Assembly (NCBI GenBank): GCA_947630505.1
Contig: CANRHV010000007.1
Span: 1 to 64,000, forward strand
Origin: an uncultured Monoglobus sp.
GTDB taxonomy: Bacteria > Bacillota > Clostridia > Monoglobales > Monoglobaceae
Reading direction: 5' to 3'
DNA: 64,000 nt
Of the stretch, positions 18,581-27,407 are shown piece after piece (position 1 is the stretch's first letter; every line of letters begins with the position of its first letter). Below the pieces are notes generated by a model. The model was not told the origin of the DNA. It saw only the letters and a program-made list of their open reading frames with translations, and made no database searches. The position numbers and the translations under genes are program-made.

Positions 18581-18607
18581 TAAATCTGAAAATACGAGGT
18601 GAAATAT

Positions 18608-19147
18608 ATGAACTTAACAAAGACAAGCAAGTTTATAAGCCTTGTTCTGCGCCACCACCCCGAGGCGGCGGAGATCGAGCTTGACGAACACGGCTGGGCA
18701 AATGTAGACGAGCTCTTGGCCGGCATTTCGGGAAAGCGCCATATAAACCTAACTATGGATATCCTCGAGGAGATCGTGAGGACAGACAGCAAGGGCCGCT
18801 ATTCGTTCAATGACGACAAAACGCTGATACGCGCGAATCAGGGGCACTCGATAAACGTTGACGTTGAGCTTAAAGAAACAGCGCCGCCCGAGTTTTTGTG
18901 GCACGGAACGGGCGAAAAATTCGTGAGTTCGATCGACAAAAACGGATTGCTGCCGAAAGGCAGACTGTATGTTCATCTGTCGGGCGATACCAAAACCGCC
19001 GAATCGGTTGGCAGGCGCCACGGCAGGCCCGTCATATACAAGGTCCTGAGCGGAAAAATGGCAAGCGACGGATATAAATTCTATCTGTCCGAAAACAAAG
19101 TCTGGCTGACAAAAGCCGTGCCTGCCAAATATCTTGAAAAGCTGTAA
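18608..19147 (+). CDS. kptA: RNA 2'-phosphotransferase (Tpt1/KptA)
   Basis: 179 residues from ATG 18608, with GAGGTG 6 nt upstream; a GTG three codons earlier belongs to that site. Conserved blocks are TSKFISLVLRHHPE, ANQGHSI, LWHGTG and VHLSGD with RHGRPVIYKV, the NAD-binding and catalytic residues of Tpt1. The yeast enzyme removes the 2'-phosphate left by tRNA splicing, using NAD+. Bacteria lack that splicing pathway, so the natural substrate here is unknown. A terminator follows directly. Confidence 0.93.
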   Translation: MNLTKTSKFISLVLRHHPEAAEIELDEHGWANVDELLAGISGKRHINLTMDILEEIVRTDSKGRYSFNDDKTLIRANQGHSINVDVELKETAPPEFLWHGTGEKFVSSIDKNGLLPKGRLYVHLSGDTKTAESVGRRHGRPVIYKVLSGKMASDGYKFYLSENKVWLTKAVPAKYLEKL

Positions 19148-21109: not shown

Positions 21110-21138
21110 TTGACAACAACCTATTATTATGATATTAT
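21110..21138 (+). promoter_or_regulatory. Promoter of the structured small RNA
   Basis: TTGACA (21110-21115), 17 nt, TATTAT (21133-21138), predicting a start near 21145, exactly where the closing stem of the RNA begins. Confidence 0.85.
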
Positions 21139-21144
21139 ATATTT

Positions 21145-21318
21145 GCAACGCAAGTTAATATAATTGGTTAGATGCTTTGGAATGGGATCGGCGTTTTTGT
21201 CATATGATAAAAATGCGTTCTCCATGAATTTGATTCTGTTCCAAATTCGATTTAACTTGTGTTGCAGCAGTCGGAGAATGTGTTTTTACGTGTTGTCCGA
21301 TTGGGCAGCACGTTTTTT
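21145..21318 (+). ncRNA. Structured RNA of about 174 nt, 6S-RNA-like rod
   Basis: Bases 21145-21158 pair with 21252-21265 over 14 bp. An asymmetric internal loop follows (21159-21175 against 21246-21251), then a 15-bp stem with wobbles (21176-21190 with 21231-21245), a 14-nt bulge, and an 8-bp apical stem GCGUUUUU/AAAAAUGC. This closing stem, central bubble and apical arm plan is that of 6S RNA, which sequesters RNA polymerase. Downstream, 21288-21298 pairs with 21303-21313 (GATT loop) and is followed by T6, a strong terminator. An alternative pairing AGUCGGA/UCCGAUU would open that terminator. No protein is needed to explain the region. Either 6S or an undescribed RNA. Confidence 0.65.
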
Positions 21319-21477
21319 GTTTAAGATAAATTTCCCCGCGATGGTTCCGCGAGGCGAGGCGGCCGATATCCGCCCATACGGCACGATAATACCTGCGTTT
21401 TCAAAAAGCGGTTTTATAAAAACATGTCCCCATATTGAAAAATTATGACTAATAATTATATGGGGGTGTTGTCAAAC

Positions 21478-22197
21478 ATGAATATATCGATTTTTATATG
21501 TGACAGAACACTGCTGAGCGTTGTGAAAGACCTGACAAAAACATGTATAGAAAATAAATGCGGTATTAATCTGGCCTCATCGACTTGCTGCATGAATTTA
21601 ATTCTGGAAAAAGCGTCAAAGAGTTCAAAAAACGATTTATACATAGTTTCATCGCGCGATATTGTCAGCGATTCAAATAAATTATTTATCGAGAAAATAA
21701 GTAAAATAGGCGAAAGCAATAATTTGATCATACTTCGCCGCGGCAATGACAGCATAAGTAAAATTGATTCTCTCAATATAAGCTCACGCCGCGTCATTGA
21801 CGCGTCGGGCGATAATTGGCAAAAAGAGTATTTCGACTCATTATCCGATGTCATCAATGAGTATTTGGACAAAGCAGCCGACAGCTTTGTTTTGCATACC
21901 AACAAAACATTTATTTCGATCCCGTATGATGAGATAAATTATATTGACACCGAAAAGCAGAACCATGCACGGACAATATATTACGGCAATAAAAGCGCAA
22001 GCATAAATCTGTCACTCTCCGTAATCGAGCAAAATCTGGACAAGCGTTTCCTGCGCTGCCACAGGTCAATAATTGTCAATACCGATAAAATTTCCGAAAT
22101 AAACGGCGAAGAGCTGTATATTAAATTAAAGGATAATAAGGTTTTGCCAATAAACAGAAATTTTATTAAACTTTTGAAAACCGATAAATCTGGATAA
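21478..22197 (+). CDS. LytTR-family DNA-binding regulator
   Basis: 239 residues from ATG 21478, with GGGGGTG about 9 nt upstream; an ATG at 21445 lacks a ribosome site. The N-terminal 120 residues resemble a receiver (MNISIFICDRTLLSVVKDL) but a clear phospho-acceptor Asp is not seen. The C-terminal 90 residues are a LytTR domain (ISIPYDEINYIDTEKQNHAR, FLRCHRSIIVNTDKISEI, LPINRNF). LytTR regulators bind direct repeats spaced about two helical turns. No histidine kinase is adjacent. The gene is AT-rich compared with the core genome. Confidence 0.85.
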   Translation: MNISIFICDRTLLSVVKDLTKTCIENKCGINLASSTCCMNLILEKASKSSKNDLYIVSSRDIVSDSNKLFIEKISKIGESNNLIILRRGNDSISKIDSLNISSRRVIDASGDNWQKEYFDSLSDVINEYLDKAADSFVLHTNKTFISIPYDEINYIDTEKQNHARTIYYGNKSASINLSLSVIEQNLDKRFLRCHRSIIVNTDKISEINGEELYIKLKDNKVLPINRNFIKLLKTDKSG

Positions 22198-23064: not shown

Positions 23065-23787
23065 TTAATTTTTGCTAAATCCATTAGCAATGTTAATTAA
23101 TTCACTTGTTTCAATAGAGCCGGCAATTGTATAAAAGTATTTATCATCATTATATATTATTATGCTTTCGTTTTTGATATTATCTATATTTAAAAAAGCA
23201 TCATAACCTTTAATTAAAATCTTTTCTACATCAGCATCTTCTGAATTTACACTTATTGAATCACTATTATTAGACACATCAAGACTAAATGATTTATTTT
23301 CATTATTCTCAAATAATAAAAAATAAATTTCTCCATCATCATCTTTATCAATTTGTTTAAGCACAAAGCCCTCGGGTATATATTGTAAGGTTATATTTTC
23401 GATAGCTAAACTGCTGTCTCCGTTGCTCTCAACCAAACTAACATCGGTACTTATTTCATCACGGTGTATAAATTTGTTATAAAACTTCATTCGCCACGCG
23501 TCCACACTAAGTATCGAGACCACGGATACGACTAAAACTGCCGCGACAAAGATTGCTGCGATACGCCCGTATTTTGTATATGTTTTTTTGTGTTGTTTCC
23601 GACGTTCTGCAGCGAATAACTTACTCATTCTCTTTTCAAAGTCAGCAGAAGGAGAGACATCAGGCATGCCGTTCAGACGTTCGTCAAGCAGACGGCTTTC
23701 AGCTTCAATTATTTTATCGTCCGATTTTTTGATTACAGTATCTATTATTTCGTCTATCATGTCATAGTTTTGATTATTATTGTTCAT
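23065..23787 (-). CDS. Anti-sigma factor-like membrane protein (DUF4367 type)
   Basis: 240 residues. The N-terminal 70 residues are cytoplasmic and charged, one membrane helix follows (about 73-95, GRIAAIFVAAVLVVSVVSIL), and the outer part carries LQYIPEGFVLKQ and a C-terminal SIETSELINIANG, the DUF4367 pattern. The start overlaps the sigma-factor stop by 4 nt, the usual sigma/anti-sigma pairing, so it probably holds the sigma factor at the membrane until an external signal arrives. Confidence 0.82.
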   Translation of the reverse strand: MNNNNQNYDMIDEIIDTVIKKSDDKIIEAESRLLDERLNGMPDVSPSADFEKRMSKLFAAERRKQHKKTYTKYGRIAAIFVAAVLVVSVVSILSVDAWRMKFYNKFIHRDEISTDVSLVESNGDSSLAIENITLQYIPEGFVLKQIDKDDDGEIYFLLFENNENKSFSLDVSNNSDSISVNSEDADVEKILIKGYDAFLNIDNIKNESIIIYNDDKYFYTIAGSIETSELINIANGFSKN

Positions 23788-24323
23788 AATATTGCCTCCT
23801 CATGAAGCTTGGTTCTGATAATTTTTCTGGCACGGAACAATCTCTTCTTCACTGCCTCATCGCTTATACCGAAATATCTTGCGATTTCGCCATTGTGTAA
23901 TTTGTATAGCATCTTCATTAATAATGTATCTTTATATATTTCGGGTAAGGCGTTAATTGCCGCATATATTCTGTCATCTATTTCTTTGTTGATCACGATC
24001 TCGGCAGGATCTTGTGCGTCTGCTATGCTTATTTCAAGTCTTTCTTCAGTTTCGGCATCATAATTCAGTTTTGTTTTTTGGCGGTAAATCCGCTTAGCTT
24101 TATTGCGGCAGATCACATGCAAATAGTTTTTTATATGCATCTCGTCTTTCTCTTTCAGCTTGTCCGGATCCGATAAAATCACGAGAAAAGTTTCCTGAAC
24201 AGCGTTTTCTGCAAGTTGGTGATCGCATAAAATATTATATGCGCTTTTGTATAAGCTGTTTCCGTAAAGATTAAACAAGCGCTCAAAATCAGGCTCTTCT
24301 TTAGGCTTAAACTTAAAAAACAT
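23784..24323 (-). CDS. ECF-type RNA polymerase sigma factor
   Basis: 179 residues. Region 2 is LFNLYGNSLYKSAYNILCDHQLAENAVQETFL (core binding and -10 recognition) written here in part: NILCDHQLAENAVQETFL. Region 4 is LPEIYKDTLLMKMLYKLHNG with the helix-turn-helix EIARYFGISDEAVKKRLFRA. It recruits RNA polymerase to a small regulon, probably including its own operon. It is translationally coupled to the anti-sigma gene. A broken relative lies at 19412. Confidence 0.9.
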   Translation of the reverse strand: MFFKFKPKEEPDFERLFNLYGNSLYKSAYNILCDHQLAENAVQETFLVILSDPDKLKEKDEMHIKNYLHVICRNKAKRIYRQKTKLNYDAETEERLEISIADAQDPAEIVINKEIDDRIYAAINALPEIYKDTLLMKMLYKLHNGEIARYFGISDEAVKKRLFRARKIIRTKLHEEAIL

Positions 24324-25256: not shown

Positions 25257-27407
25257 ATGCCGATAGCTGTTGGCGGGGTTGGTACTTGGAGCTTTGAACA
25301 AAACGTACCGTCAGATGCTGAAATAGTTGAATACTATCGCGGTTACATATATGTTATAGGGGTCGGCGAAACTAAGGCCTATAATTTACTTGATAGGACA
25401 TGGGCAACATTATCAGGTGGAGTGGTAAATTATAGTTATGATTTTAAAACCCCTGCTGTGTTTTGTAACGGAAAAACATATCGGTATTTGGCAACATATA
25501 GTATTTTCGGAGACGATCCGACTTATAAATCAGACGGATATTTATACGAATGCGATGTAACTACAGGTGCAGTAACAAGAGTTTATTATGCGGCTTATAA
25601 CGGCATACATTATGCTTCTATAGCGGCTCTTAATGGAAAAGTATTTTTGGCTGGTGGCGAATGGCTTGAATGGGATACCGGAATGTATAGCAATTATGAT
25701 TTTATAGATGCGTACGATCCAGATGATCCAGATAATGGACTTAGAAACGTTGGGCTCGCTTCTTCATGGAATATATATGATACTGCCATATATGGTGATG
25801 ATATATACTATTTTGGTGCTTCATACAGCAGTAATTATATAGAAGATCATACTATTGGAAAATTTAATTCAATAACTTATGAATGTGATGAAATAAATTC
25901 TACTGGGATTCAGTATGTAGGTTATACAGGAGAAACAGCTTGTGCCATTAACGAAAATGAAATATATATTGTCGGTGGCGAAGGCAACATGAATGGGGTA
26001 AGATATTTTGACTTTGATTCGGGGGATTGGTATACATGTTCAAGTTTAACATATGGTAGAAAGAACGCAGCGGTTGAGTATTATAATGGCTATCTGTATG
26101 TATTGGGCGGCTATGATGAAAACGACAATTATCTAAATAACATGGAAGTGTACAACATTTCCACAAAGACATGGACTAGTAAAAGTATCGGAAATTCAAA
26201 TTTAAAAATAACTGACGGTCATACTTGCTTATACAACGGAAAGCTCTATGCTATGGGCAATGGAAATTTCGGAGTTTACGGTTTGAAACTAAATGCTAAA
26301 AAATATTATGATCCACAGCATATTTCGTTTGAATTGGAGGTAGATGGTTTTGATTCCTACAGAGAACAAACATTAGCGCATTGTGGTAATGAAATATACG
26401 CATGGGGTGAGGGATATTATGCCGACGGAACAGATTCAATGTTTACGGTAACCTCTCCTTACCTTATAGATCATGGTGGACAAATAAAGTTTGTAAAACA
26501 GGTGTGCCGCGGCAAAAATCACAACCTTATACTTGATGGTAATGGTAATGTTTGGGGATGGGGTAGTAATACAAATTATCCTATGGGCAACTTAGATGGA
26601 AAAGTAAAAACAGTTACAAAACTTAGTGTTATATCAAATGTTAGACAGGTTGCTGCAGGCGCTGAATTTTCAATTTTTCTGAAAAATGACGGAACTCTTT
26701 GGGGTGTTGGTAAGAATGATGTAGGTCAATTAGGTCAAGGTTTAACCTCAGATTACTGCTCCACACCAGTTAGAATTGCACCTACATTATATTTTGATTA
26801 TGTTGATGCAAGCGAAGAATATGTTGTTGCTATTACTACAGGTGGACAAATATACACTTGGGGTGGCAATATGAAAGGACAGCTTGGAAATGGCGGAAGT
26901 GGCAGTGTAAAAACAGGAATATATGCAGGAGTTGAATATGATAACAACCCGAAAGCCATTGATATTACTTTGCCGAGTGATGAAACATTTGAAAAAGTAG
27001 CAGCAGGAATTAACTTCTGTCTTGCATTAACAAGTGAAGGTAATGTATATGCTTGGGGTGATAACGGCAGCGCTCAGTTGGGACAGGGAAACAAGGCTAA
27101 TAACTATAAGCCCTATAAGATTTCGAAATTAAGTGATATTACAGATATAGCAGCCGGACGCAATAGTGCTCTCGCTACCAAGAACAATGGTGAGACAGTA
27201 TATGGATGGGGAGAAGGCAGAGACGGCCAGCTCGGATTTTATACTTCCGGCTCAATCTTGAGTCCTACTGAGATAACTGCATTAGATGGCTATGATATAA
27301 CGCAAATATCATGTGGTGATGATTTCACTATTGTATCAAGAGATAATGGATATAGTTTATATTCATTTGGTAACAACGGTAATGGTGCTTTGGGTATTTT
27401 AAATTAA
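25257..27407 (+). CDS. 3' part of the kelch/RCC1 repeat protein
   Basis: 716 codons in the same frame as the upstream 135-residue ORF; sense codons begin right after the TAG at 25215. The first half has kelch-type blades (YNGYLYVLGGYDENDNYL, MEVYNISTKTWTSKS, INENEIYIVGGEGNMNGVRY). From about 26500 the RCC1 type takes over (GNVWGWGSNTNYPMGN, GTLWGVGKNDVGQLGQG, GQIYTWGGNMKGQLGNG, NVYAWGDNGSAQLGQG), predicting two beta-propellers. Alone it lacks a signal peptide and has no good ribosome site at ATG 25257, so it is functional only if the TAG is read through, reverted or an error. Confidence 0.75.
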   Translation: MPIAVGGVGTWSFEQNVPSDAEIVEYYRGYIYVIGVGETKAYNLLDRTWATLSGGVVNYSYDFKTPAVFCNGKTYRYLATYSIFGDDPTYKSDGYLYECDVTTGAVTRVYYAAYNGIHYASIAALNGKVFLAGGEWLEWDTGMYSNYDFIDAYDPDDPDNGLRNVGLASSWNIYDTAIYGDDIYYFGASYSSNYIEDHTIGKFNSITYECDEINSTGIQYVGYTGETACAINENEIYIVGGEGNMNGVRYFDFDSGDWYTCSSLTYGRKNAAVEYYNGYLYVLGGYDENDNYLNNMEVYNISTKTWTSKSIGNSNLKITDGHTCLYNGKLYAMGNGNFGVYGLKLNAKKYYDPQHISFELEVDGFDSYREQTLAHCGNEIYAWGEGYYADGTDSMFTVTSPYLIDHGGQIKFVKQVCRGKNHNLILDGNGNVWGWGSNTNYPMGNLDGKVKTVTKLSVISNVRQVAAGAEFSIFLKNDGTLWGVGKNDVGQLGQGLTSDYCSTPVRIAPTLYFDYVDASEEYVVAITTGGQIYTWGGNMKGQLGNGGSGSVKTGIYAGVEYDNNPKAIDITLPSDETFEKVAAGINFCLALTSEGNVYAWGDNGSAQLGQGNKANNYKPYKISKLSDITDIAAGRNSALATKNNGETVYGWGEGRDGQLGFYTSGSILSPTEITALDGYDITQISCGDDFTIVSRDNGYSLYSFGNNGNGALGILN

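Follow-up and report, generated by a model that had tools for sequence, protein, structure and literature searches.

Competing helices suggest transcription attenuation by a family of leader RNAs in uncultured gut Clostridia

The 64,000-nucleotide stretch of DNA analyzed here (the window), from an uncultured Monoglobus species, contains a compact RNA element between a consensus promoter and a strong terminator. Its size and rod-like plan raise the question of whether it is a 6S RNA, a cis-regulator of the LytTR gene behind it, or an RNA of a new kind, as an earlier note made from the sequence had variously proposed. The RNA from 21145 to 21319 (175 nt) has a predicted folding energy of −64.4 kcal/mol, compared with a mean of −39.5 kcal/mol for 200 dinucleotide shuffles (z −6.3), none of which folds as low. 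The described architecture, comprising the closing stem, asymmetric bubble, long stem, 3′ bulge, and apical hairpin, is recovered in full in the computed fold, and the promoter and terminator are both found. Transcription of the window copy is expected to start near position 21145. The features are as follows:

21110–21138, + strand: promoter TTGACA-N17-TATTAT with an extended TGn, 11 of 12 consensus matches
21143–21158, + strand: 5′ strand of P1, the closing stem (predicted fold; covariation in the family)
21176–21189 (approximate), + strand: 5′ strand of P2, the long stem (predicted fold; covariation of the family P2)
21190–21201, + strand: strand E, 5′ arm of the apical hairpin (predicted fold; E:D included in the pair counts)
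21206–21223, + strand: strand D, the apical hairpin's 3′ arm and its extension into the 3′ bulge, with E or A as its partner
21232–21245 (approximate), + strand: 3′ strand of P2 (predicted fold)
21252–21267, + strand: 3′ strand of P1 (predicted fold; covariation)
21273–21287, + strand: strand A, GGAGAAUGUGUUUUU, able to form 15 bp with D or, jointly with 21268–21272, to pair with strand B
21268–21303, + strand: candidate antiterminator hairpin A:B, CAGUCGGA with UCCGAUUG plus inner pairs (sequence and permutation tests)
21288–21313, + strand: intrinsic terminator hairpin B:C, 11 pairs and a loop of 4, followed by the U tract at 21313–21318

The AGUCGGA/UCCGAUU pairing that the earlier note had set against the terminator is present (21269–21275 with 21296–21302) and lies inside the longer antiterminator hairpin. 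A second competing pairing of 15 bp joins UAAAAAUGCGUUCUCC in the rod to GGAGAAUGUGUUUUU behind the closing stem.

Elsewhere in the window, the + strand encodes a KptA/Tpt1 RNA 2′-phosphotransferase (18599–19147; PTS_2-RNA, E 2.5e-44), an enzyme that is uncommon in bacteria and for which we know of no substrate there, as well as a large RCC1/Kelch repeat protein (25257–27407). On the − strand, a sigma-70-family (ECF-like) factor adjoins a DUF4367 protein, possibly an anti-sigma factor (23065–24323).

A DNA search in relatives revealed sister-species versions of the element with identities of 93, 80, and 69%, together with shorter matches elsewhere, one of which is a second site in the window's own genome. 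A pattern derived from the 3′ part of the element gave more than 117 matches among about 85,000 prokaryote genomes, nearly all of them in metagenome-assembled genomes of uncultured gut Clostridia; a match in Frigidibacter, in which the rest of the element is missing, was discarded as chance. A covariance model (R1) built from an alignment of 83 members gives the window copy a score of 97 bits (E 1e-16). At E ≤ 2.2e-5, it detects 29 copies in the window's 2.7 Mb genome. In nine of 11 genus relatives, R1 finds 9–35 copies per genome, and a complete genome of the same genus carries a single weak copy (38 bits) preceding a secreted protein. Within the class, 90 of 391 sampled genomes are matched, and the copy counts there are floors, since seven candidates were scored per genome; the phylum sample of 299 genomes yielded the window's own genome and no other. 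Tandem pairs of elements about 45–120 nt apart also occur (L192, L162, L199, L203, L171, L110, L120). The whole window matches no Rfam 15 family at the gathering score, riboswitch, T-box, and leader classes included, which agrees with the alternative raised earlier that the RNA is new, and a top-scoring family member searched against Rfam at a relaxed threshold gave nothing above chance. Literature searches covering open papers without their supplements found no description of this RNA. Judged from sequence comparison, the element is a member of a large family of leader RNAs absent from Rfam 15.

The family shares a well-defined anatomy. A sigma-A-type promoter (at least 9 of 12 matches) precedes 150 of 169 members, a score that shuffled flanks attain in 11%, and its −10 box ends exactly 3 nt upstream of the element in 138 of those 150. 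The conserved structure consists of P1 (12 bp counted), P2, the apical helix E:D, and a 3′ bulge into which strand D extends. After P1′ come a step of 6 nt and then strands A (GGAGnnAUGCRUUUUU), B, and C. P2 is variable in sequence and has arms of fairly constant length (26 ± 3 nt for the 5′ arm); in a long subclass, this 5′ arm bears an additional side branch. When P1, P2, E:D, and B:C were examined together, 93.5% of the cells were paired, compared with 30–60% in slid controls, and 243 double-change cells were counted versus 77.5 after shuffling, a control that, like the permutations below, leaves the relatedness of the members in. Part of the observed sequence conservation is accounted for by the seed pattern, which is also part of the reason why GCAGCAAUCGGAG is invariant in alignment A2; paralogs found by the model vary at these positions.

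Strand D has two possible partners. The helix E:D closes the apical hairpin, and the helix D:A, 13–15 bp in length, pairs the apical 3′ strand and the bulge with the segment behind P1. D:A is paired in 93.9% of cells (slid controls, at most 67%) and contains 55 double-change cells versus 11.8 shuffled, and its column pair 63:129 ranks with those that covary most strongly in the alignment. The members' own D:A duplexes have a mean energy of −16.5 kcal/mol, compared with −13.5 kcal/mol with permuted partners (0 of 5000 permutations). The paralogs of one genome give −14.6 versus −10.7 kcal/mol (0 of 5000), with pairings such as AAGUC/GACUU, AUCAAG/CUUUGAU, and GAAGCG/CGCUUC, and the same result is obtained with the loci found by R1 and not by the seed pattern (0 of 5000). 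A conserved short open reading frame was set aside: the D:A pairing can account for the start-like NUG in strand A, and some members have ACG in its place.

The antiterminator A:B is paired in 89.9% of cells, far above its slid versions, and covaries little in the pattern-selected alignment (21 versus 17.1 cells). Its support is clearer among the model-found loci, where none of 5000 permutations is as good; paralogous examples include UUGGAG/CUCCAA, GCAUAGCG/CGCUAUGC, and GAGAUCA/UGAUCUC. The mean energies of the competing helices are −17.4 kcal/mol for B:C, −15.1 kcal/mol for A:B, and −15.0 kcal/mol for the apical helix, beside the value given above for D:A. E:D, D:A, A:B, and B:C thus form a chain of mutually exclusive helices of similar energy. 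The pattern of covariation supports the closing stem, the rod, the terminator, and D:A, and more weakly A:B. Such a chain is most likely that of an attenuator in which D:A blocks the antiterminator.

We consider it probable, at roughly 80%, that the element is a cis-acting transcription attenuator in which the choice between D:A and E:D would set read-through or termination. Sequence comparison among the members shows the promoter, P1, P2, E:D, D:A, B:C, and the position before genes, and less strongly A:B. We infer the following direction for the switch. RNA polymerase would start at the attached promoter and produce the rod with P1, P2, and E:D, and then strands A, B, and C. As long as D is held by E, A would remain free and A:B would form, thereby preventing the terminator and allowing transcription of the gene behind. 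Once released, D would form 13–15 bp with A, so that B:C could form and transcription would end. Since D:A crosses P1, a fold-back is required, and we infer that D may reach A without melting P2 if the P2 arm folds back along P1 to its base. The fairly constant arm lengths are compatible with this geometry and do not prove it. For a transcript that ends with A, the calculated cost of releasing D and A with P1 and P2 intact is 7.5 kcal/mol, and the formation of D:A yields 13.0 kcal/mol. The balance is favorable in 83 of 83 members when no penalty for the pseudoknot is included.

A shared physiological signal would decide between E:D and D:A. The most likely input is a ligand or RNA-binding protein that acts on the rod, which we favor slightly over a purely kinetic device. 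In such a device, which we regard as an unlikely but serious variant of the attenuator explanation and not as another kind of element, the slow fold-back of D onto A would compete with elongation without any ligand, and read-through would reflect polymerase speed, the supply of nucleotides, or temperature. The closeness of the helix energies, the lack of a common metabolic theme among the regulated genes, and the scarcity of unpaired bases resembling a binding pocket all speak for it, whereas the conserved junction, in which AUA faces purines, and the limited variation in arm length suggest a specific fold. Returning to the attenuator with a dedicated input, we put forward tentatively, as a proposition not far short of even, that the family represents a new riboswitch-like class in which the tip of the rod folds back to its base through D:A. 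In many families of uncultured gut Clostridia, it would respond to a global signal and control a regulon that, within one genome, comprises up to about 30 genes for surface, AbrB-zinc, and unknown proteins.

The position of the copies relative to genes bears on whether they act in cis. The intrinsic terminator lies between promoter and gene, as expected of an attenuator, and the competing antiterminator is conserved, more weakly so in the pattern-selected alignment. The gene usually starts 15–60 nt past the terminator. Of 100 downstream genes selected for a Shine-Dalgarno-like site and a start within 70 nt, 75 have their start codon 15–30 nt past the U tract. BspA-type LRR repeats occur in 31 of 116 downstream proteins and AbrB/MazE-like domains in 5–6, the remainder comprising a variety of lipoproteins, further secreted proteins, and unknown proteins of small size. 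AbrB-zinc genes follow the element at a distance of 20–48 nt at all 11 places compared, in seven species. Distant relatives of the AbrB-zinc protein are present nearly everywhere in the order, so co-occurrence is uninformative about a role as a trans-acting regulator. Small proteins recur behind the element as well (L195, L197, L202, L204; L206, L105; L065, L100, L180, L183, L186; L187), and four of them scanned against Pfam gave no match. Most copies have a gene close behind, but some, including that in the window, do not. This last observation, together with the self-contained promoter and terminator, would suit stand-alone, trans-acting small RNAs that end at the terminator, with the genes behind being incidental. 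The Shine-Dalgarno-like sites and the start-codon spacing, the competition of an antiterminator with the terminator, and the conserved AbrB-zinc neighbors make that explanation improbable.

For the window copy, the earlier note had suggested cis-regulation of the LytTR gene, which starts 158 nt behind the terminator. The only close LytTR ortholog (82% identity, L208) shares the 5′ flank and has no element, and in the sister genome the 93% identical element precedes an LRR gene, 39 nt downstream. The link is not kept between sister genomes, and regulation of LytTR was rejected as a conserved function. The LytTR 5′ flank corresponds to window positions 21372–21479 and is found without LytTR upstream of the element at L003:1305–1399. 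The locus has been rearranged between sister genomes, so the window copy most likely once preceded an LRR gene, and comparison of the flanks suggests that it probably lost this target.

Rearranged flanks between species, tandem copies, and up to 35 copies per genome could also reflect a mobile, MITE-like DNA hairpin that supplies genes at new sites with a promoter and whose structure has a role in transposition or recombination. We hold this to be very improbable: the covariation of D:A, A:B, and B:C is meaningful in RNA only, the start-codon spacing is fixed, and no viral contig scanned carries the seed pattern, a result that also speaks against carriage by phages. Spread by recombination could nevertheless be compatible with a role as an attenuator.

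The identification as 6S RNA did not survive the covariance search that the earlier note had proposed, in which no match to RF00013 appeared at any threshold; when the region around the element was compared with Rfam at E values up to 10, two chance matches were obtained, neither of them 6S. The canonical 6S RNA of the genome is located at another locus (contig C2:6976–7169, L001) with 82.1 bits, where R1 in turn gives no match. Although 6S RNA shares the rod shape, the length of about 175 nt, and the possession of a promoter, the large central bubble between two stems is absent from the conserved structure, which has an asymmetric junction instead and a 3′ bulge that pairs with strand A. Despite its fitting length and shape, a multicopy leader with 29 copies, most of them preceding genes, is hardly credible as a 6S RNA or a 6S paralog predicted to bind RNA polymerase. 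One family member also weakly matches the trpB motif (RF04312), a cis-regulatory candidate with an antiterminator near P1 (PMC11109978). At 18.9 bits and E 3, far below the gathering score of 59, and with other genes behind it, this match was judged to be due to chance.

Like the terminator/antiterminator riboswitches and attenuators of Firmicutes, the family has a structured leader between promoter and gene, an antiterminator and a terminator that exclude each other, and several copies per genome. It differs from them in fitting no known class, in the additional D:A exchange across the closing stem, in the promoter that every copy carries at a fixed spacing, and in targets that are surface or unknown proteins with no metabolic theme. 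The c-di-GMP (GEMM) riboswitches occur in many copies per genome with diverse surface-related genes. By analogy of copy number and targets, they may be functional analogues of the present family, which however has no sequence or structure match in Rfam.

With about 29 copies in the window's genome and relatives in roughly a quarter of the genomes sampled from the class, the family suggests that these little-studied gut bacteria have a global regulon missed by present annotation. Such a regulon would bear on the control of large LRR surface protein families. D:A, A:B, and B:C provide directly testable pairings of a putative strand-exchange switch, and the family offers an orphan RNA whose signal can be searched for.
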